Shown here one piece after another: positions 37,705 through 48,883 of a stretch of DNA of 64,000 nt. A program made the translations under genes and the position numbers. The DNA comes from Xylanibacter rarus (GTDB lineage Bacteria > Bacteroidota > Bacteroidia > Bacteroidales > Bacteroidaceae). Numbering within the stretch: the first letter of the stretch is position 1; every line of letters starts with the position of its first letter. The notes under the pieces are model-generated. The model worked only from the letters and a program-made list of their open reading frames with translations, made no database searches and was not told where the DNA came from. The stretch is taken from the NCBI RefSeq assembly GCF_001275135.1, contig NZ_LFQU01000004.1, positions 62,001-126,000 of the forward strand, read 5' to 3'.

Positions 37705-37823
37705 TGCATAACCCATTGACGCTCAATGCGTTGCAAAAGGTCATCTTTTAGCTCCTGAAAGGTGGCCTTTTAGCGTGCAATATGTGGTCTTTTGCAATGC
37801 GAAATGGCACATATTGGAAAACC
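37705..37823 (+). repeat. 22-bp-periodic interspersed element, copy 7
   Basis: Leader ATAACCCATTGACGCTCAAT, then modules at 37735, 37757, 37779 and 37801, ending GGAAAAC. Only a few substitutions separate it from copy 5, 15 kb away. Confidence 0.92.
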
Positions 37824-38309: not shown

Positions 38310-40553
38310 ATGAAACCCACAAACTACCATCTTTTCGACTTTCTCGACTTCGACGTCAGCCTTAGCCGCAACGAGTCGCTATGGAAGGCATGCAAACCCT
38401 CAGCCGTGTTCGAGAACGACGGCGACATCTGCGTGCTCGTTCCGTTCCAGAAGCAGATACTGGCCAACGACATGGCAGCCGACACCGGCGTGCCGCGTGA
38501 GGAATATACGCTCATCATCAGGCAGTATGAGCCAAAGATCCTGCGCCTGTTCATAGGCTTCGGCGAGGAGCAGATGACCGACGAGTCGGAGATGTTGCAG
38601 ATGAGCGACAGGGTTAAGAAGACGCCGCTGAGCGTAAGCTTCGGCAACGGCCGATGGACCGTCACCGACCCCGAAGGCACCGTCAGGGCCGTTATCAACA
38701 TACAGGAGCCCGAGCTCGACCGCTGGAGCACGCTGCTGCCCGACCCGCAGGAGACGCTCGACATAAGGCTGTATCCCGACGGAAAGCGCGAGATACGCCT
38801 GGCCGCCTACGACCACTTCTCGCCTCCGCGCTACGACGCGCTGCCCATAGGCTTCTGCAAGCTTGACGGACAGAAGGAGCGCGCCACGATGTCGTTCGAG
38901 TGCAAGGCCGACGAATGTTTTGCCGGAACGGGCGAACGCTTCACCAAGATGGACCTCAGCGGACAGACGTTCTTCCTCAAGAACCAGGACGGACAGGGCG
39001 TAAACAACCGCCGCACATATAAGAACATTCCGTTCTACGTGTCGAGCCGCATGTACGGAGCATTCTATCACACCTGCGCCCACAGCAAGCTGTCGCTCGC
39101 CGGAGTGTCAACGCGCTCGGTAGAGTTCCTCAGCGACCAGGCCATGCTCGACGTATTCCTCATCGGAGGCGACTCTATGGAGGAGATTATCCGCGGCTAC
39201 CGCGACCTGACGGGCTACCCCTCGATGCCTCCCTTGTGGAGCTTCGGCGTGTGGATGAGCCGCATGACATACTTCAGTGCCGACGAGGTGAACGAGATTT
39301 GCGACCGCATGCGCCGCGAACATTATCCCTGCGACGTGATACACTTGGACACCGGCTGGTTTAAGACCGACTGGCTGTGCGAATGGAAGTTCAACGAAGA
39401 GCGCTTCCCCGACCCCGAAGGCTTCATCCGCGGCCTGAAGGACAAGGGCTACCGCGTAACTCTGTGGCAGCTGCCCTACGTGGCTGAGGATGCCGAACAG
39501 ATTGACGAGGCGCGCAAGAACCACTATATCTGCACGCTGACAAAGCAGCAGGAGGGCGAAGGTTCTAACTTCTCGGCCCTCGACTACGCCGGAACAATCG
39601 ACTTCACCGACCCCGCCGCCACCGAGTGGTACAAGGGTTTGCTGCGCCGTCTGCTGAACATGGGCGTGGCAGCGATAAAGACCGACTTCGGCGAAAACAT
39701 CCACATGGATGCCATCTACAAGAACATGAAGCCCGAACTGCTCAACAATCTCTATGCGCTGCTGTATCAGAAGGCTGCCTATGAGGTTACCAAGGAGGTT
39801 ACGGGCGACGGCATAGTATGGGCAAGAGCTGCCTGGGCGGGCTGCCAGCGCTATCCTCTGCACTGGGGAGGCGACTCATGCAGCTCGTGGGACGGCATGG
39901 CCGGATCGCTCAAGGGCGGACTTCACTTCGGTCTGTCGGGCTTCGCCTTCTGGAGCCACGACGTGCCCGGATTCCACACTCTGCCCAACTTCATGAACTC
40001 ACGTGTACGTGATGACGTCTACGTCCGCTGGACTCAGTTCGGCGTCTTCTCGTCACACATCCGCTATCACGGCACCAACAAGCGCGAGCCTTGGCACTAC
40101 CCTGCCATCGCCCCGATAGTGAAGAGATGGTGGCAGCTGCGCTATAAGCTCATACCTTACATCCTTCAGGAAAGCCGGAAGGCCGTAAGCGGCGGCTCAA
40201 CGGTGCTCCAGGCGCTGATATTCCATCACCCGGACGACCCCATGTGCTGGCATATCGACGACGAATATTACTTCGGCGACGACTTCCTCGTGGCTCCCGT
40301 GATGAACAGCGAAGGCCGCCGCGACGTCTATTTGCCTGAAGGCAACTGGGTGAACTTCTTCACCGGCGAGCGCTACAGCGGCGGAAAGTGGCTCAAAGAC
40401 CTCAATGTGCCGCTCGAACTGATGCCCGTCTACGTGCGCGAAGGTGCCGAAATACCTGTTTATCCCGAGCCGGTAGACTGCACAGACGACATGGACCTGA
40501 GCAAGACAGAATATATAAAGATTGACGGAAGGTTTGGAGGGATTGAGTGGTAA
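38310..40553 (+). CDS. GH31 alpha-glycosidase, YicI-like (alpha-xylosidase/alpha-glucosidase)
   Basis: A 747-residue GH31 enzyme with no signal peptide, hence cytoplasmic. An N-terminal beta-sandwich (about 1-260) precedes the TIM barrel. The nucleophile is D459 in AAIKTDFGENI and the acid/base D522 in HWGGDSCSSWDGM, with the following GSLKGGLHFGLSGFAFWSHD characteristic of the YicI branch. That branch favours alpha-xylosides, but isoprimeverose or maltose-type substrates cannot be told apart here. It follows the DUF6377 regulator after 663 bp with its own promoter, so an alpha-linked substrate may be handled alongside the beta-glucan locus. Confidence 0.9.
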   Translation: MKPTNYHLFDFLDFDVSLSRNESLWKACKPSAVFENDGDICVLVPFQKQILANDMAADTGVPREEYTLIIRQYEPKILRLFIGFGEEQMTDESEMLQMSDRVKKTPLSVSFGNGRWTVTDPEGTVRAVINIQEPELDRWSTLLPDPQETLDIRLYPDGKREIRLAAYDHFSPPRYDALPIGFCKLDGQKERATMSFECKADECFAGTGERFTKMDLSGQTFFLKNQDGQGVNNRRTYKNIPFYVSSRMYGAFYHTCAHSKLSLAGVSTRSVEFLSDQAMLDVFLIGGDSMEEIIRGYRDLTGYPSMPPLWSFGVWMSRMTYFSADEVNEICDRMRREHYPCDVIHLDTGWFKTDWLCEWKFNEERFPDPEGFIRGLKDKGYRVTLWQLPYVAEDAEQIDEARKNHYICTLTKQQEGEGSNFSALDYAGTIDFTDPAATEWYKGLLRRLLNMGVAAIKTDFGENIHMDAIYKNMKPELLNNLYALLYQKAAYEVTKEVTGDGIVWARAAWAGCQRYPLHWGGDSCSSWDGMAGSLKGGLHFGLSGFAFWSHDVPGFHTLPNFMNSRVRDDVYVRWTQFGVFSSHIRYHGTNKREPWHYPAIAPIVKRWWQLRYKLIPYILQESRKAVSGGSTVLQALIFHHPDDPMCWHIDDEYYFGDDFLVAPVMNSEGRRDVYLPEGNWVNFFTGERYSGGKWLKDLNVPLELMPVYVREGAEIPVYPEPVDCTDDMDLSKTEYIKIDGRFGGIEW

Positions 40554-40566
40554 TAGGTTAAATTGG

Positions 40567-40627
40567 TAGTTAAAGGAGTTAAAGTAGTTATCGCCGGCCG
40601 TGCCGGCTAGGAGTTAAAGCCATTAGT
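40567..40627 (+). repeat. AGTTAAAG / GCCGGC hairpin repeat, copy A
   Basis: TAGTTAAAGGAGTTAAAG, then TAGTTATC, the hairpin GCCGGC-CGT-GCCGGC (40593-40607), then TAGGAGTTAAAGCCATT. It is the inverted counterpart of the leaders at 40893-40952 and 44166-44229. Confidence 0.75.
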
Positions 40628-40728
40628 CTGAACGCTTATCGTCAATCTTACAATAAGTAAACAGACATTTAATACAATAGCTTCTGCCATAAGCAGGAAC
40701 GCAAAGCGATAACTTCTTTAACAACCCT

Positions 40729-40932
40729 AACCACCTGACAATCAGCAACAAAATAAAAAATATAGAGTCATTTGCCCGCAATGCCAATGGCTTTAGCCCT
40801 TAACCGGCACGGCCGGAGACAACACCTCAGACCTATCTAACCGCCTGACAATCAGCAATTAAATAAAAATATAGAGTCATTTACCAACAAGACAAATGAC
40901 TTTAACTCCTAGCCGGCACGGCCGGCGATAAC
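40729..40932. repeat. Tandem duplication of about 94 bp containing inverted copies of the hairpin repeat
   Basis: Unit 1 (40729-40822) and unit 2 (40839-40932) both read AACC(A/G)CCTGACAATCAGCAA, an AAATAAAAA tract, TATAGAGTCATTT, a variable part, and then the inverted hairpin repeat ACCGGCACGGCCGG or GCCGGCACGGCCGG. They are offset by 110 bp. They fill the 409-bp gap between GH31 and the fused methyltransferase; no gene is seen there. Confidence 0.8.
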
Positions 40933-40952
40933 TCCTTTAACTACTATAACTA
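40893..40952 (+). repeat. Hairpin leader immediately upstream of the fused methyltransferase (copy C)
   Basis: GACTTTAACTCCTA, hairpin GCCGGC-ACG-GCCGGC (40912-40926), then GATAACTCCTTTAACTACTA. It ends about 10 bp before the ATG and is almost identical to the leader of the symporter gene at 44166-44229. Confidence 0.75.
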
Positions 40953-40962
40953 CTTATTGAAC

Positions 40963-43900
40963 ATGTGGAAAAAGAATCTTGAAGAAACAAAACAGCGATA
41001 CATACAATGGTGGAACCACAAGGGCATTGTGCTGAACATGTGGGAACACTTTCAGGAAGGCGTCAAGCCGCATGCCGATGTGCCTGCGCCGCCAGCCCCG
41101 AAGGACCTCAACCAGAAATGGTTCGACCCGAAATGGCGCGCGGAATATCTCGATTGGTATGTGGCTCACAGCTGTCTGAAGGCCGATATGCTGCCGGTTG
41201 CAAACACACAGCTGGGCCCCGGCTCGCTCGCCGCTATCCTTGGAGGCGTGTTCGAAGGCGGAGAGGACACGATATGGATACACCCCGACCCTGACTTCAC
41301 CGACGACATAAAGTTTAATCCGGAGCATCCCAACTGGCTGCTGCACAAGCAACTGCTGACGGAATGTAAGAAGAAGGCCAAGGGCAACTATTATGTGGGC
41401 ATGCCCGACCTCATGGAAGGCATGGACGTTCTGGCGGCTCTGAAGGGCACCGACAAGGTGCTGATGGACACGGTTACGCAGCCTGAGGTGCTGGAACGGC
41501 AGATGCAGCAGATAAACGACATCTACTTCAAGGTGTTCGACGAGCTTTACGACATAATACGCGAGGGCGACGAGATGGCTTTCTGCTACTTCTCTTCGTG
41601 GGCACCGGGCAAGATGAGCAAGCTGCAGAGCGACATATCAACGATGATAAGCGTGGAAGACTACCGCCGCTTTGTGCAGCCTTTCATACGCGAACAGTGC
41701 CAGAAGATTGACTACACGCTGTATCATCTCGACGGAGTTGGCGCCCTTCATCATCTGCCGGCGCTGCTCGAGATTGAGGAACTCAACGCAATACAATGGA
41801 CTCCGGGCGTAGGTGAGCCGCAGGGTGGCTCGCCTAAATGGTACGACCTGTACAAGAAGATACTGGCAGGAGGCAAGAGTGTGATGGCATGCTGGGTAAC
41901 GCTCGACGAACTGCGGCCGCTGCTCGACAACATAGGAGGCAACGGAGTGCATATAGAGATGGACTTCCACAACGAGGACGAGGTGGAGAAAGCCATGCGC
42001 ATCGTTGAGGAATATCAGGAGGACGAGGCAAAGAAACCGCAGCAGGAGGACAACACCATACGCATAAGCGGCGGCAAGAACGACGCCGATAAGGACGTGG
42101 AGGCAATAATAGAGAGCGCCGAACGCGAGTTTGAGGAGCTTGCCGACAAGGGCGACAAGGTGCCTGCCGACTGGCTCGACGGCTGCCCCATCGTATCGGC
42201 AGGACGCAACCGCATACTCGTTATCGACGGAGCCATGGGCACGATGATACAGAGCCGACGCCTCGGCGAGGCCGACTTCCGCGGCGAAAGGCTTGCAGGG
42301 CATGACGTGAACGTGAAGGGATGCAACGACCTTCTGTGCCTTACGCGCCCCGACGTCATTGAGGACATTCACCGTAAGTATCTCGAAGCCGGAGCCGACA
42401 TCATCGAGACAAACACCTTCAACGCGCAGCGCATATCCATGGCAGACTATCATCTGGAGAACTTCTGCCGCGAGATAAACCTCGAGGCGTGCCGCATAGC
42501 GCGCAAGGCTGCCGACGAATTTACAGCCAAGACACCGCACAAGCCGCGCTTCGTGGCAGGTTCGATGGGTCCGACGAGCAAGACCTGCTCAATAACATCA
42601 GACACCACACAGCCGGGCTGGCATGCCTTCAGCTACGACACTCTGCGCGACGCCTACGCAGAACAGGCCGAAGCGCTGATTGAAGGCGGCGTCGACGCCC
42701 TGCTGATAGAGACGATATTCGACACAAAGAACGCGCAGGCGGCCATCGAGGCGGCACGCGGAGCAATGCGCAAGACAGGCAAACGTCTGCCGCTGATGCT
42801 GAGCTTCAGCATAGCCACTGCCGACGGACACAACATGCTGGGACAGAGCATCGGGGATTTCCTCGCATCCGTTGCCGGCAGCGACATCATGTCGGTGGGC
42901 GTAAACTGCTGTTCTGACGTAAGCCTTGCCGCCGACATGCTCGTACATCTCGGCAAGACTACGCCCTACATGATAAGCCTTTACCCCAACGCCGGCATGC
43001 CCGACGCCGAGGGACGCTACAGCCACACGCCCGAGATGCTGCAGCGCGAGCTGTGGCCGCTGATAGAGTGGCACGTGCTCAACATCGTGGGAGGATGCTG
43101 CGGCACAACCGACATGCACATCAGAAAGCTTGCCGAAGCCGTGGTTCCCGCCGAAGGACTTATCCTTTCGCCCCACCCTGCGCAACCATCTGATAATGAG
43201 GGCGTTGCAAAAGGTGGCCTTTTAGGCTCCAATATGCCGTCTTTTAGCGTGCAAAAGGTGGCCTTTCACAATGCAAAAGGTGACCTTTCAGAAAACCACG
43301 GGCACGACCATGCCGCCGAACCCTGTGAATGCTGCGCGCCGAAGGCCGCAAACGAGCCATCGGCAAGCGACGAGATATTCGACGCCATACTGCAAGGCAA
43401 CGCCGACAAGGCAGCCGAAGCGACGCAGAAGGCCGTAGACGCAGGCATGGCTCCGCAGGACATCATCAACAGTCAGATGATACGCGCCATGGGCGAGGTG
43501 GGCCAGCGCTTCCAGGACGGCAAGGCCTTTGTGCCCCAGCTGCTCATGGCAGGACGCGCCATGAAGGCCGCCCTCGTGCTGCTGAAGCCACTCATGGCAG
43601 GCAAGGCCGACGTTACGATAGGCCGCGTGGTCATCGGAACGGTAAAGGGCGACCTGCACGACATAGGCAAAAACCTCGTTGCATCGATGCTCGAGGGCAG
43701 CGGCTTTGAGGTGATAAACATCGGCATCGATGTGCCGAGCGACAAGTTTGTAGAGGCTCTGAAGGACAACCACGCCGACATCCTGTGCATGAGCGCCCTG
43801 CTTACCACGACAATGACCTACATGAAGGATGTAATCAAGGCCGTGGAAGACGCCGGACTGCGCGACAAGGTGAAGATTATGGTGGGCGGAGCGCCCGTAA

Positions 43901-43998
43901 GCCAGGCCTTCGCCGACGAGATAGGAGCCGACGGATACAGCGACAATGCCAACGAAGCAGTGAAGGTGGCAAGGGAGCTGGTGAAGGGAAAAGAATAA
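40963..43998 (+). CDS. Three-domain fusion: URO-D-type corrinoid methyltransferase + homocysteine S-methyltransferase + B12-binding domain
   Basis: A 1011-residue cytoplasmic protein. Residues about 1-345 form a uroporphyrinogen-decarboxylase-like domain of the corrinoid methyltransferase type (YIQWWNHKGIVLNMWEH; DYTLYHLDGVGALHHL). After a charged linker, about 415-735 form a MetH-like homocysteine S-methyltransferase domain: RILVIDGAMGTMIQ, AGADIIETNTFNAQ, and zinc cysteines in VNCC (649/650) and GGCCGT (712, 713). Residues 747-778 are encoded by an inserted interspersed element. About 795-880 form a helical cap, and 885-1011 a B12-binding domain with DLHDIG (D897, H899, G902). The folate-binding and SAM-reactivation domains of MetH are absent. 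Likely reaction: unknown methyl donor to cobalamin to homocysteine, giving methionine. An in-frame TTG two codons upstream is a weaker start. Confidence 0.85.
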   Translation: MWKKNLEETKQRYIQWWNHKGIVLNMWEHFQEGVKPHADVPAPPAPKDLNQKWFDPKWRAEYLDWYVAHSCLKADMLPVANTQLGPGSLAAILGGVFEGGEDTIWIHPDPDFTDDIKFNPEHPNWLLHKQLLTECKKKAKGNYYVGMPDLMEGMDVLAALKGTDKVLMDTVTQPEVLERQMQQINDIYFKVFDELYDIIREGDEMAFCYFSSWAPGKMSKLQSDISTMISVEDYRRFVQPFIREQCQKIDYTLYHLDGVGALHHLPALLEIEELNAIQWTPGVGEPQGGSPKWYDLYKKILAGGKSVMACWVTLDELRPLLDNIGGNGVHIEMDFHNEDEVEKAMRIVEEYQEDEAKKPQQEDNTIRISGGKNDADKDVEAIIESAEREFEELADKGDKVPADWLDGCPIVSAGRNRILVIDGAMGTMIQSRRLGEADFRGERLAGHDVNVKGCNDLLCLTRPDVIEDIHRKYLEAGADIIETNTFNAQRISMADYHLENFCREINLEACRIARKAADEFTAKTPHKPRFVAGSMGPTSKTCSITSDTTQPGWHAFSYDTLRDAYAEQAEALIEGGVDALLIETIFDTKNAQAAIEAARGAMRKTGKRLPLMLSFSIATADGHNMLGQSIGDFLASVAGSDIMSVGVNCCSDVSLAADMLVHLGKTTPYMISLYPNAGMPDAEGRYSHTPEMLQRELWPLIEWHVLNIVGGCCGTTDMHIRKLAEAVVPAEGLILSPHPAQPSDNEGVAKGGLLGSNMPSFSVQKVAFHNAKGDLSENHGHDHAAEPCECCAPKAANEPSASDEIFDAILQGNADKAAEATQKAVDAGMAPQDIINSQMIRAMGEVGQRFQDGKAFVPQLLMAGRAMKAALVLLKPLMAGKADVTIGRVVIGTVKGDLHDIGKNLVASMLEGSGFEVINIGIDVPSDKFVEALKDNHADILCMSALLTTTMTYMKDVIKAVEDAGLRDKVKIMVGGAPVSQAFADEIGADGYSDNANEAVKVARELVKGKE
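43183..43299 (+). repeat. 22-bp-periodic interspersed element, copy 8, inside the fused methyltransferase gene
   Basis: Leader CAACCATCTGATAATGAG, then GCGTTGC, modules at 43209, 43231, 43253 and 43275, ending TTTCAGAAAAC. The whole copy, about 117 bp or 39 codons, keeps the frame open and encodes the linker that includes VAKGGLLGSNMPSFSVQKVA. Confidence 0.92.
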
Positions 43999-44005
43999 TA
44001 TTTCA

Positions 44006-44050
44006 AGGAGTTAAAGGAGTTAGAGTAGTTAAAGGAGTTAAAGCCAAATG
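44006..44050 (+). repeat. AGTTAAAG repeat, copy D
   Basis: AAGGAGTTAAAGGAGTTAGA followed by GTAGTTAAAGGAGTTAAAG just after the fused methyltransferase stop. It is the same word set as copy A but lacks the hairpin. Around 44115-44150 the gap also holds CCCATAAGTCATACATCCCC, the C-rich word family. Confidence 0.6.
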
Positions 44051-44165
44051 CCCTGCCGGTTATTAACAAGGCTAAATACGCCGGTCATTACATCATCTGC
44101 AGCGCATCGGTCTCATTACTCCCATAAGTCATACATCCCCCATAAAGCCGCCAACCGGCTGTAAG

Positions 44166-44229
44166 GCTAATGACTTTAACTACTGAGCGGGCACAGCCCG
44201 CGATAACTCCTTTAACTACTATAACTACC
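44166..44229 (+). repeat. Hairpin leader upstream of the sodium:solute symporter (copy E)
   Basis: GACTTTAACTACTGA, hairpin GCGGGC-ACA-GCCCGC (44187-44201), then GATAACTCCTTTAACTACTA. Relative to copy C the third stem pair changes from C-G to G-C on both sides, so pairing is kept. Confidence 0.75.
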
Positions 44230-44246
44230 AAATAAACAACATATCC

Positions 44247-45851
44247 ATGAACTCACAATCATTACATGGCCTCGACTGGGGCATACTAATAGCATACTTC
44301 GTCATCCTGCTTGCCATCGGCATATGGGCAAGCACCAAGCGCAAGAAGGGCAGCAGCCTGTTTCTTGCCGAACATTCTCTGCGCTGGCATCACATAGGAT
44401 TCTCCATGTGGGGCACCAACGTAGGCCCCTCTATGCTCATAGCGTCGGCAAGCGCCGGCTTCACCACGGGCGTCGTGTCGGGCAACTACGCATGGTACGC
44501 CTTCGTCTTCATAGCCCTGCTCGCCTTCGTCTTCGCCCCGCGCTATCTCGGCAGCAAGGTTTCCACCCTGCCCGAGTTTATGGGCCTGCGCTTCGGACAG
44601 TCCACACGCAACATGCTGGCGTGGTATACCATCGTCACGATACTCATCTCGTGGCTCGCGCTGACGCTCTTCGCGGGTGGCATAATCATACGCCAGGTGT
44701 TCGGCATACCCATGTGGATGTCGGCATTCCTGCTGCTCGGCATCTCCGCCTTCTTCACAATGCTCGGCGGACTGAAGGCCGTGGCCTACACCAACGTATA
44801 TCAGATGGTGCTGCTCATACTCGTTTCGGCCACGCTGACCTTCGTAGGAATATACCGCCTCGGCGGCGACTCGTTCACAGGAGGCATCGCCGTGCTGGCC
44901 AATCCCGACATTGTGCCGTCTAATTACTGGAACCTCTTTCAGCCCAACAGCGACAAAGACTTCCCCTGGCTGCCCATACTGCTGGGTTATCCTATAAGCG
45001 GACTGTGGTTCTGGTGCACCGACCAGTCGATGGTTCAGCCCGTACTGGCAGCCAAAGACCTCAGCGAAGGACAGAAGGGAGCTAACTTTACGGGCTGGCT
45101 GAAGATACTCGACGTGGCCATATACATCATCCCCGGCATCGTATGCTTCGCCCTCTGGAAGACCGGTTTCTTCGGAGGCATGACCATTGAGGCCGACAAC
45201 GCCTACATGACTCTTGTGTCGAGCCTCTTCCCTGTGGGCATGGTTGGCCTCGTGCTTGCCGTTCTCACCGCCGCGCTCATCAGCACCATAGGCTCTGCGC
45301 TCAACGCCTTGAGCACGGTGTTCACGATGGACATCTACGTGAAGAACATCCGTCCGGAGGCCACACAGAAGGAAATAATGCGCACAGGACGCATAATAAC
45401 CGTCATAGGCGCACTGGTGTCGATAGTCATCACCGTGGCTGTTGACAACATAAAGGGCATGAACCTTTTCAACGTATTCCAGTCGGTGCTCAGCTTCATC
45501 GCACCACCTATGGCGGCAGTGTTCGTCATGGGCGTGTTCTGGAAGCGCTGCACGACGCTCGCCGCCAACGTAACGCTCACCTTCGGAACCATCTTCAGCA
45601 TCGGCTCGGGCATCCTTTACCTGTGGGTTATACCGGGAGCCACGGAGCAGGTGCACTTCATGATGCTGTCGTTCTACATCTTCGTAATCCTCATCATCAG
45701 CATGATTATCGTCAGCCTATGCAACAAGCAGGCAACGGTAAGCCCCGAGATAGTGAAGCTGAGCGAAAGACCAAAGCGCACAGTTGTGGTGGCATGGACG
45801 CTGCTTGCCGTGGTTATGGTGGCTCTCTACATATTCTTCAACGGACACTGA
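44247..45851 (+). CDS. Sodium:solute symporter (SSS/SGLT family)
   Basis: A 534-residue inner-membrane protein with about 13-14 hydrophobic segments. Family features: LDWGILIAYFVILLAIGIWA at the N-terminus, GFSMWGTNVGPSMLIASASA (TM1-2 core), GGLKAVAYTNVYQM near 172, GLWFWCTDQSMVQPVLAAKD near 255 and LISTIGSALNALSTVFTMDI near 350. This matches the SGLT-like branch, many of which import sugars. Its leader is nearly identical to that of the fused methyltransferase 250 bp upstream, hinting at co-regulation, so a methylated substrate is also conceivable. A strong terminator follows. Confidence 0.88.
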   Translation: MNSQSLHGLDWGILIAYFVILLAIGIWASTKRKKGSSLFLAEHSLRWHHIGFSMWGTNVGPSMLIASASAGFTTGVVSGNYAWYAFVFIALLAFVFAPRYLGSKVSTLPEFMGLRFGQSTRNMLAWYTIVTILISWLALTLFAGGIIIRQVFGIPMWMSAFLLLGISAFFTMLGGLKAVAYTNVYQMVLLILVSATLTFVGIYRLGGDSFTGGIAVLANPDIVPSNYWNLFQPNSDKDFPWLPILLGYPISGLWFWCTDQSMVQPVLAAKDLSEGQKGANFTGWLKILDVAIYIIPGIVCFALWKTGFFGGMTIEADNAYMTLVSSLFPVGMVGLVLAVLTAALISTIGSALNALSTVFTMDIYVKNIRPEATQKEIMRTGRIITVIGALVSIVITVAVDNIKGMNLFNVFQSVLSFIAPPMAAVFVMGVFWKRCTTLAANVTLTFGTIFSIGSGILYLWVIPGATEQVHFMMLSFYIFVILIISMIIVSLCNKQATVSPEIVKLSERPKRTVVVAWTLLAVVMVALYIFFNGH

Positions 45852-45876
45852 CAACAAAACTGAATTATGATACAGC

Positions 45877-45918
45877 AAAAAGCGCGGCAAGCCCTATGTG
45901 GACTTGCCGCGCTTTTCT
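45877..45918. terminator. Bidirectional intrinsic terminator after the symporter
   Basis: AAAAGCGCGGCAAG (45878-45891) pairs perfectly with CTTGCCGCGCTTTT (45903-45916). It stands between convergent genes and can serve both strands. The remaining 45919-46113 holds only loosely repeated words such as ATAAAAGACTATATG. Confidence 0.9.
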
Positions 45919-46113
45919 ATATGTTTCAAGCCATGTCTGACGCGCAATAAAAAGGCAGAAAGGCCCGTTTTAAAGGATTATACGCACGATAATAAAAGAC
46001 TATATGCCAGACTATAAAAGACAACTGAACGCATAATGAAAAGCGACACGGCATATAATGTAAGGCAACGCGACGCGAGATGAATCACGTTATCATGCCA
46101 AACGCACCGCAGA

Positions 46114-46800
46114 CTACTTCTTGCGGCGGCGCTTGTAGCAGTCTTTGAAGTCGCATAGACCGCACGAATATTCGAGCTTGCGCACCGAAGGACCGAGGCC
46201 TATCACGCCGCTCACCGACTTGATGGGCACCATAAGGCTCGAGTCGGTAAGGCTTACGCCGCACGGACGCTCCTCGCCGAACAGGGGGAAGAGCATCTGC
46301 TGCTGAGAGACATGCCACCCGCAGTAGCCCGGACTGAAGCGGTTGGTGTGGCGCCAGCCGCGCTCATCAATGGCTTTCTGCAGTGAAAGCTCCATGCAGT
46401 CGGCCGCCTTCTCGGCTATGACGCTGCCTATTGAGTCGGCAACAAACACCTTCACCATGTCGTCTTCGTCCTTAAGGCGGTGCTGAAGCTGCTCAAACTC
46501 CTCGCCGGCGGTGGCCACGAAGAAGGCGAAAGCCTGCGAGCCGCGCAGCTGCCGGCTGATGATGCGCCCCACGCTGAAGCTGACTGAGCCTACGGTGAGC
46601 ACATGCTGCTCTGCATCGAGCTGTCCGGGAGTGATGAAGAAGCAGAAACGCGGGCGCAGAACGGCCTTTATACGCTCCATGACGGCAGAGGTCTCGGCCT
46701 GCACGGCAGCGTCGGGCACGGCGTCGCCATAGCCCATCTGCTCGTAGACTTCAGACGGAAGGATGTTGAGGTCGTCGAAAATTATTTCCTGTTTTAGCAT
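46114..46800 (-). CDS. MetH-type reactivation domain protein (corrinoid protein activase)
   Basis: A 228-residue stand-alone version of the vitamin B12-dependent methionine synthase activation domain, which reductively remethylates inactive cob(II)alamin with S-adenosylmethionine. It carries the AdoMet-site segment RFSPGYCGWHVSQQQMLFPL (residues about 158-177) and, before it, the SIGSVIAEKAADCMELSLQ helix. The last 20 residues have Cys spaced as CGLCDFKDC and then a basic RRRKK tail, an unusual ending that could bind a metal or Fe-S cluster. MLKQEIIFDDL is used as start; the frame continues to 46839. It is last of three minus-strand genes, 177 bp after the URO-D gene. Confidence 0.82.
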   Translation of the reverse strand: MLKQEIIFDDLNILPSEVYEQMGYGDAVPDAAVQAETSAVMERIKAVLRPRFCFFITPGQLDAEQHVLTVGSVSFSVGRIISRQLRGSQAFAFFVATAGEEFEQLQHRLKDEDDMVKVFVADSIGSVIAEKAADCMELSLQKAIDERGWRHTNRFSPGYCGWHVSQQQMLFPLFGEERPCGVSLTDSSLMVPIKSVSGVIGLGPSVRKLEYSCGLCDFKDCYKRRRKK

Positions 46801-46977
46801 TTTATTCTGATTAAAAAGCGGCACAACGCTGCGCCGCATGACGCCGCTGCGGCCCTCGGAGGGTGCAGCGGCTTATGTAGTTAAGTATGTCGGGCGGGGT
46901 CTGTCAATATGAATCGAGTCTGACCATGACCTTTACGTCATGCTGCAAGGCCTCTGACGAACTGACAGAACCTGCGC

Positions 46978-47988
46978 TTACAGTTTGCTGTTCCACTCGC
47001 CGACAGCCTCAAAGAAGGCATCGATGTTGGCAAACGGAGTGTGCGGCGGGGTGTCGCATCCGCTTGATATCACAAAGTTTGGATAGTTGCTCATCTTGCG
47101 CAGCAGGTCTGTGGTGGCGCGGCGCATCTCGTCGGGCGTGGCAGACTTGAACAGACTGACGGGGTCGAGGTTGCCCATGGTGAGAGCCGTGGGCGGCACC
47201 TGACGCGACACCTGCTCCATGTCGCACTTGTTGCCGAAGTGATATGCGGCGGCTCCGGTGGCAGTCATGGCGTTGGTGCACTGCCCGGTGTTGCCGCAGT
47301 TGTGTAGCACGACGGTGAAATAGTCGTCCTGCACGGCCTCGACAATACGCCTGACGTAGACCGAAGAGAAGCGCATGCAGTCGTCGTCAGACATCAGTCC
47401 GGCGGCAGGCTCAGCCATGACAACGCCGTTGGCGCCCGTCTTCTTCAGCGCGATGCAGTATTTCAGGATGAAGTCGGTACACTTGTCGAGCAGCATGGCG
47501 GCAGCCTCGGGGTTCTGATATATCAGAATCATAATCTCCGACATGTCGTAGAGACGGCCTGCAAGCGAGAAAGGTCCGATGCATCCGGCAAGCACGGGGC
47601 GGTCGGTTATGGCACGGGCGGCCAGCAGATTGGCCTTGAGATATGCCGGCACGCGGCCTGCGCTGAGCGACGGCACCTGCAGACGTGCTATGTCGTCGGC
47701 GCTGTTGAGCATGTGCCCCCTGACGGCCGGCACCTCGTCGGGCTCGAAGGCGATGTCGGCGCCGAAGGCTTCAGCCTCAACGGTGAGGTCCATTATCACT
47801 GTGGCGGCAGCCGTGTCGTAGCGTCCGGCAAGCGCCCTGACGGCGTTGAAGTGCACCTCGCCGTCGCTCACGGCGTCGATCACGCGTCGCCCTATCATCT
47901 CGATGCCGGGATGTGTCATTATGGGCACAGCCATCACCTTCTTGCTGTCGATGACGGCTTTGGCCCATTCGGTCATGTTTATCTTCAT
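46978..47988 (-). CDS. URO-D/MtaA-CmuA family corrinoid methyltransferase
   Basis: A 336-residue protein of the uroporphyrinogen decarboxylase superfamily, on the MtaA/MtbA/CmuA side rather than true HemE. Zinc-site candidates are H and C of VVLHNCGNT (about residue 240) and C of ISSGCDTPPH (about 312), the HxC...C arrangement of methylcobamide:thiol methyltransferases. The segments AEAFGADIAFEPDEVPAV near 75 and LAGCIGPFSLAGRLYDM near 135 also fit. Substrate not predictable. It follows the nitroreductase gene by 20 bp and precedes the activase gene, suggesting one corrinoid-related operon. Confidence 0.85.
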   Translation of the reverse strand: MKINMTEWAKAVIDSKKVMAVPIMTHPGIEMIGRRVIDAVSDGEVHFNAVRALAGRYDTAAATVIMDLTVEAEAFGADIAFEPDEVPAVRGHMLNSADDIARLQVPSLSAGRVPAYLKANLLAARAITDRPVLAGCIGPFSLAGRLYDMSEIMILIYQNPEAAAMLLDKCTDFILKYCIALKKTGANGVVMAEPAAGLMSDDDCMRFSSVYVRRIVEAVQDDYFTVVLHNCGNTGQCTNAMTATGAAAYHFGNKCDMEQVSRQVPPTALTMGNLDPVSLFKSATPDEMRRATTDLLRKMSNYPNFVISSGCDTPPHTPFANIDAFFEAVGEWNSKL

Positions 47989-48764: not shown

Positions 48765-48883
48765 GTTGTAACATACTGACATTCAGCGCGTTGCAAAAAG
48801 CCATGTTTCAGGCTCTAAAAGATGGCCTTTCGGCGTGCAAAAGGTGGCCTTTTGGAGGCTGAAAGGGCACCTTTCGGAAAACA
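48765..48883 (+). repeat. 22-bp-periodic interspersed element, copy 9
   Basis: Leader GTAACATACTGACATTCAGC, then modules at 48795, 48817, 48839 and 48861, ending GGAAAAC. It lies between divergent promoters. Confidence 0.92.

Follow-up and report, generated by a model that had tools for sequence, protein, structure and literature searches.

Palindromic repeats that lie between genes and also in frame within genes have been described as the Rickettsia palindromic elements (Ogata et al. 2000, 2002, as presented in PMC10969869), and in the enterobacteria, ERIC/RU repeats have been reported fused to open reading frames (ORFs) (PMC2759123). To the extent that these two sources describe it, the in-frame capture of palindromic repeats is already established for the Rickettsia elements and is reported for ERIC-like repeats. 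The BrickBuilt MITE of Porphyromonas gingivalis, with the consensus AGAYCATARTATCCTCTCRTRTG, has terminal inverted repeats and 19 copies in strain ATCC 33277, and is reported to be always intergenic (PMC4596501). PINSR, a repeat of 188 bp in Prevotella intermedia and P. nigrescens, occurs in 177-184 intergenic copies per genome; most of its positions are common to two strains, and its published description reports no terminal inverted repeats (PMC4755523).

Here, we describe an interspersed element in a stretch of 64,000 nucleotides from Xylanibacter rarus (hereafter, the window), one copy of which is read in frame as part of the linker of a corrinoid fusion protein. What is new in this case is that the copy is shared by five species, and that it occupies a linker which, in at least three further species, is made up of different repeats. 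The element resembles the Rickettsia palindromic elements in being a short palindromic repeat, both intergenic and in frame, that adds residues to an existing protein: the in-frame insertion is seen in five species, and the hairpins of the family have mean folding z-scores of -4.6 to -5.3. The Rickettsia elements, however, are described from many unrelated genes, where they code for a conserved peptide, whereas here a single orthologous linker is involved, with no conserved peptide, and the modular 22-bp array is unlike the elements presented in that source (PMC10969869). Among the 137 elements that we placed, there is one clearly intragenic locus, together with three candidates at ORF starts. 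The ERIC/RU repeats are likewise intergenic repeats of similar size that are read in frame within genes; the reported cases concern many small or hypothetical ORFs and some conserved enzymes, whereas the present one concerns a conserved multidomain protein in five species (PMC2759123). BrickBuilt is also a Bacteroidales element, with short direct repeats (of 23 nt) between a leader and a tail, but its repeat consensus is different (PMC4596501), and the flank consensus of the element in genome G000 shows, by eye, no terminal inverted repeats such as those of BrickBuilt and other MITEs. PINSR, compared here by its description and not by its sequence, is likewise a repeat with many intergenic copies in a Prevotella clade (PMC4755523). 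Of our 137 elements, 129 are intergenic, and the linker copy is not. Among the papers listed by our literature searches, none was on the present Prevotella element family.

An Element Copy in the Linker of a Corrinoid Fusion Protein

The fusion gene (Table 1) starts with the ATG at 40963, with the TTG at 40957 as a possible alternative, and codes for a protein of 1011-1013 amino acids. Its conserved N-terminal domain of about 398 amino acids had no sequence match in Pfam, NCBIfam or PDB, and none of the papers listed by a literature search was on the enzyme fusion. The gene lies in a possible methyl-transfer cluster (window 38310-47988) that comprises GH31, corrinoid fusion, sodium:solute symporter, methionine-synthase activation-domain-like protein, and MtaA/CmuA-type URO-D methyltransferase. 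GH31 adjoins the fusion gene throughout the related loci L063-L069, and the symporter follows the fusion in all four of those loci that extend far enough (L063, L064, L065, and L067). Both flanks of the fusion gene (40557-40962 and 44000-44049) carry a second repeat family, GGAGTTAAAGGAGTTA plus a 109-bp tandem.

Table 1. Positions of the fusion gene, its domains, and the element copies in the window
Feature	Position	Strand	Basis or remark
Fusion gene (unnamed N-terminal domain, homocysteine S-methyltransferase, corrinoid-binding module)	40963..43998	+	ORF, Pfam domains, orthologous fusions
N-terminal part of about 398 aa, conserved	40963..42156	+	Alignment
Homocysteine S-methyltransferase domain PF02574	42217..43143	+	Pfam (S-methyl_trans); residues 421-729 counted from 40957
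Corrinoid-binding module PF02607 + PF02310	43369..43962	+	Pfam (B12-binding_2, residues 805-876, and B12-binding, residues 889-1002, counted from 40957)
Interspersed element, in frame in linker: 5' leader, four 22-bp modules, 3' end GAAAACC	43178..43299	+	Borders approximate
Module 1 of linker copy	43209..43223	+	
Module 2 of linker copy	43231..43245	+	
Module 3 of linker copy	43253..43267	+	
Module 4 of linker copy	43275..43289	+	
Linker HGHDH...PCECC, probably older and retained	43297..43335	+	CxCC motif common to L073, L080, L087, L103, L118; homology inferred
Preceding element copy, intergenic	37735..37793	+	About 5.5 kb upstream of linker copy
Following element copy, intergenic	48795..48875	+	About 5.6 kb downstream of linker copy

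The linker copy, the eighth of the 11 elements along the window, has modules spaced by exactly 22 bp, which begin at codon positions 3, 1, 2, and 3, so that all three frames are used and are open. The original prediction had placed this copy wholly within the reading frame, between the homocysteine methyltransferase and B12-binding domains, with each module read in a different open frame, and the ORF and the Pfam domains bear this out. It had also described an element of about 117 bp, divisible by 3 and without a stop; the open frame stands, but the divisibility is not established for the element because its ends are fuzzy. "Gly/Ser/Lys-rich" was a loose term for a linker in which these residues make up 13 of 39. 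Each of the remaining five frames across 43183-43299 contains at least one stop. Open frames of 117 bp are about as frequent in elements in which four or more modules were detected (65/306, 0.21) as in random intergenic 117-mers (548/2736, 0.20), and the openness alone is thus unremarkable.

Age of the Fusion and of Its Linker

Relatives were scanned with one genome per species, and the best 80 of 211 were kept as loci. By motif and length, 69 of these best 80 combine the S-methyltransferase part with the corrinoid part in a single ORF, eight keep the corrinoid part and have no S-methyltransferase motif, and three are truncated at a contig end. The 69 loci plus the window, 70 in total, are the basis of the tree and of the linker counts below, with the other eight and three dropped. 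An antisense ORF, L015, was set aside. The loci with no S-methyltransferase motif are L083 and seven from Bacteroides/Phocaeicola (L071, L075, L091, L095, L098, L102, and L135; 604-610 amino acids); in these seven, the N-terminal part is fused to the corrinoid part. Judged from these loci, the fusion predates the element.

The linker, too, is probably older. In the window, the residues HGHDH...PCECC follow directly 3' of the element, and the CxCC motif recurs in five element-free proteins among the other 69 of full length: L073, L080, and L087 (each of these three with HG just before it), L118 (HSH before), and L103. Most relatives have no such motif, and the homology of the five with the window is our inference. 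The insertion thus most likely extended a linker that was already there, or took the place of part of it, which agrees with one of the two alternatives in the original prediction, the lengthening of an existing linker: the CxCC motif is retained after the insert and is present in the five element-free proteins.

Distribution of the Linker Copy among Species

The element is present at the same place in the linker and in the same frame in L063 (Marseilla massiliensis An824), L065, L066, and L067. In the other 76 of the best 80 of 211 loci, no element was found in the ORFs at up to 4 mismatches. Because four other species share its place and frame, the linker copy is not an assembly artefact, an explanation that can be set aside. 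The nucleotide tree of the conserved domains is win,(L063,((L065,L066),((L067,L069),L068))), with in-clade supports of 97-100. The element-free L064 falls outside the window clade, and its genome has five element matches against six for a control pattern. Within the clade, L068 and L069 have no element in the linker, though their genomes keep the family. These observations suggest one gain and two losses as the simplest history, and by parsimony, a single ancestral capture would account for the five copies. In the alignment of homologues, the relatives without the element carry other linker residues; among the loci compared, no element-free genome has the same ones, and the linker of L064 differs. 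We found no empty site whose borders are exact, and transposition is therefore a putative route of insertion.

The Element Family and Its Placement

Each module consists of RAAAGRNNNYCTTTY and a 7-bp spacer, together 22 bp. The 11 elements of the window together hold 29 module pairs when up to 3 mismatches are allowed, against none in 100 dinucleotide shuffles. Neighboring modules tend to be complementary. Against the expectation for random pairs of modules within each genome, the pairs of neighboring modules whose 7-base cores are complementary throughout number 16/90 in G004 (1.9 expected), 15/95 in G053 (2.4 expected), 5/53 in G010 (1.3 expected), and 7/119 in G000 (3.3 expected), and same-strand identity shows no significant excess over random pairs. 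The mean complementarity is clear in G004 (z 5.3) and G053 (z 4.2), and weak in G010 (z 1.9) and the window's own genome (z 1.3). Within the four-module elements, pairing is better between modules 1 and 2 and between modules 3 and 4 than between modules 2 and 3 in G000, G004, and G053; in G010 (n = 5), this holds for modules 1 and 2 only. By eye, 10 of the 11 listed module pairs of G084 are exact reverse complements over five core bases. In other words, the cores differ among species, and the complementarity of adjacent modules is kept. Together with the RNA folding z-scores, whose means of -4.6 to -5.3 were obtained in four genomes, this means that the element behaves as a tandem-hairpin array with species-variable cores.

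The strict element pattern has at least one match in 18 of 120 genomes of the genus, and at least five in 9 of 120. No Rfam covariance model matched over the window at gathering scores, nor in 43100-43400 at E values up to 1. In the flank consensus of 34 four-module elements of G000, the two ends differ and, by eye, are not inverted copies of each other; terminal inverted repeats are absent from this consensus, and the consensus of G004, G053, and G010 is too weak to judge.

In the fetched stretches of five genomes, 80-90% of which is predicted coding DNA, 129 of the 137 elements are intergenic, two lie at a gene edge, and six are inside a predicted ORF, according to gene calls made by a simple codon-usage script and not taken from a curated annotation. 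Two of the six are in the linker of the corrinoid fusion, one in G000 and the other in G078, the contig of which was retrieved for this purpose, so that its linker copy is a deliberate inclusion. One falls where the start of a DXS gene is over-extended. The remaining three are at most 41 nt away from a predicted start, and would be intergenic if translation began at a later start codon. The earlier statement that the element is intergenic elsewhere is thus nearly accurate, apart from the two edge overlaps and the six in predicted ORFs. A role of the elements as terminators found no support in the orientation of neighboring genes: the 127 intergenic elements with genes on both sides lie in 71 tandem, 30 divergent, and 26 convergent gaps, against a background of 360, 110, and 94, respectively, for all gaps of at least 120 bp.

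On the seven contigs tested, the elements tend to be spaced more evenly than at random, as judged from 5000 random intergenic placements per contig, with P values that are uncorrected for multiple tests. The minimum spacing of 4356 bp in G000:C4 (22 elements in 160 kb) and of 13623 bp in G010:C3 (16 elements in 400 kb) was reached in 0/5000 placements each. The P values for the minimum and for the coefficient of variation (CV) are both <0.0002 in G000:C4; they are, respectively, 0.0038 and 0.0022 in G000:C2, <0.0002 and 0.019 in G010:C3, 0.007 and 0.014 in G004:C2, 0.11 and 0.0006 in G004:C3, 0.22 and 0.0076 in G053:C3, and 0.014 and 0.43 in G053:C1. The linker copy conforms to the local spacing, with about 5.5 kb on each side. 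The elements of the window are spread across 1548-61696, with even spacing. Such evenness could reflect a function (e.g., in chromosome organization) or the target immunity of a mobile element.

Constraint on the Inserted Segment

In six orthologue pairs, pN/pS (uncorrected) is 0.5-1.0 for the element segment and 0.20-0.23 for the domains. The amino acid identity of the segment is 16-20/38 in six of seven pairs, in which the domains are 81-87% identical, and its third codon positions are slightly more variable than the others (12 of 38 invariant, against 16 first and 13 second positions). The segments of L065 and L066 differ by two nonsynonymous changes only, with a pS of 0. We withdrew synonymous constraint as an explanation for this value, which is found in 16% of the windows of the same gene pair. 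The residues AK (modules 1 and 4) and P.F recur among the orthologues, and some constraint at the protein level may therefore persist. On these comparisons, however, the protein-level constraint on the insert is weak, and as two of the clade's seven species also lack the element, to call it "domesticated" overstates the case.

In modules 1-3 of the window, L063, L065, and L067, the arms AAAAG/CTTTT are invariant at 17/30 positions, against 7/29 in the core and spacer (P = 0.011 when stratified by codon position, in a single test with four sequences). Because L067 has lost module 4, this module was not included. Over all four modules, given with no P value, the counts are 18/40 and 8/41. This hints at a nucleic-acid-level constraint on the module arms, and such better conservation of the arms than of the cores and spacers is unexpected for a mere passenger. 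The linker copy of the window has a weak hairpin potential: on the mRNA strand its z is -2.1, whereas 37 elements of G000 average -4.95. Compared with synonymous-codon controls, the hairpin potential of the linker copy is elevated in L065 (z -3.0) and L066 (z -3.3), which are close kin and not independent, and does not exceed the controls in the window, L063, and L067 (z -1.1 to -1.3). In the AlphaFold2 model (mean pLDDT 74.9, pTM 0.44), residues 743-798 have a pLDDT below 50 and no secondary structure. The linker is thus probably disordered, though low values of this kind may also stem from the poor alignment of the linker.

Repeats in Other Linkers

Over the 70 proteins, the CCGT motif and the corrinoid helix are 86-160 amino acids apart (median 96; window 122). 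The linkers of L142, L123, and L068, chosen for their repetitive look, consist of genome-dispersed repeats unlike the window's element, with 20, 63, and 71 matches (the last in G004) in their own genomes, counts that include the linker itself, both strands, and overlapping matches. As controls, a conserved segment of L142 has one match (itself) and the ordinary-looking linker of L118 has two. In L068, another repeat thus fills the place of the element. A less selective test within each locus gave a weak result: 10 of 70 linkers, six of them in the window's clade, match non-ORF DNA of their own locus, against 8/70, 3/70, and 6/70 for three conserved segments. The linker looks like a tolerant trap for repeats.

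Weighing the Explanations

We consider it the probable explanation that the element was captured in frame by an older, variable linker, in which it was tolerated and serves as an interchangeable spacer. In the ancestor of the seven sampled Prevotella-like species, one copy of a normally intergenic hairpin-array element would have moved, perhaps by transposition, into the linker in frame; this linker would already have been present and variable, and probably disordered, and the captured element would have been retained in five of the seven species and lost from two. The linker may act purely as a flexible tether that accepts many open sequences of suitable length, the captured element being one such spacer, and because of this tolerance, it could trap a repeat family that is active in the lineage. 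The original prediction had also raised the possibility that the insertion joined two formerly separate genes. The position of the element between two domains fits this idea, and nothing else does. The relatives without the element in their linker are already fused (69 of the best 80 of 211 loci in one ORF), so the insertion did not join two genes in this clade, and in the 604-610-amino-acid Bacteroides/Phocaeicola proteins, the N-terminal and corrinoid parts are fused even without the S-methyltransferase motif; we give this idea next to no credence. It is also very unlikely that the residues coded by the element were selected for a specific role in the protein, such as the length of the swing or a contact surface. 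The frame is kept in five species, with the register held through modules 1-3 and some residues recurring, but the segment is far more divergent than the 81-87% identical domains, its third codon positions vary only slightly more than the rest, AlphaFold2 predicts no structure for it, and two species of the clade do without it.

A stronger competitor to tolerated capture, though still unlikely, is that the element is kept here as a DNA or RNA site, with the disordered linker merely permitting its position within a gene; such a site might consist of tandem hairpins or phased A/T tracts, one every few kilobases. The invariance of the arms, the minimum spacings of G000:C4 and G010:C3, the distance of about 5.5 kb from the linker copy to either neighbor, and the hairpin potential of L065 and L066 beyond their codon controls all argue for it. 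Yet the arm result is a single test on four sequences, the hairpin of the window copy is weak, and those of the window, L063, and L067 stay within the controls that the two related loci exceed. The spacing is not significant everywhere (CV in G053:C1; minimum in G004:C3 and G053:C3), the lack of synonymous divergence between L065 and L066 is ordinary for that gene pair, and the linkers of L068 and L069 have no element while their genomes keep the family. A broader form of this idea, which we regard as unlikely, is that the elements are chromosome-wide, evenly spaced tandem-hairpin sites whose placement is selected or target-immune, the linker copy being both such a site and a protein tether.

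Significance

Tolerated capture in the linker would provide an example, shared by several species, of non-coding repeats as a source of linker sequence in a multidomain enzyme. It also brings to light a Prevotella element family whose hairpin modules are complementary and whose spacing is unusually even. If that spacing is functional, the coding copy would offer a clean test of whether such an element is retained for its DNA or for the peptide that it encodes.
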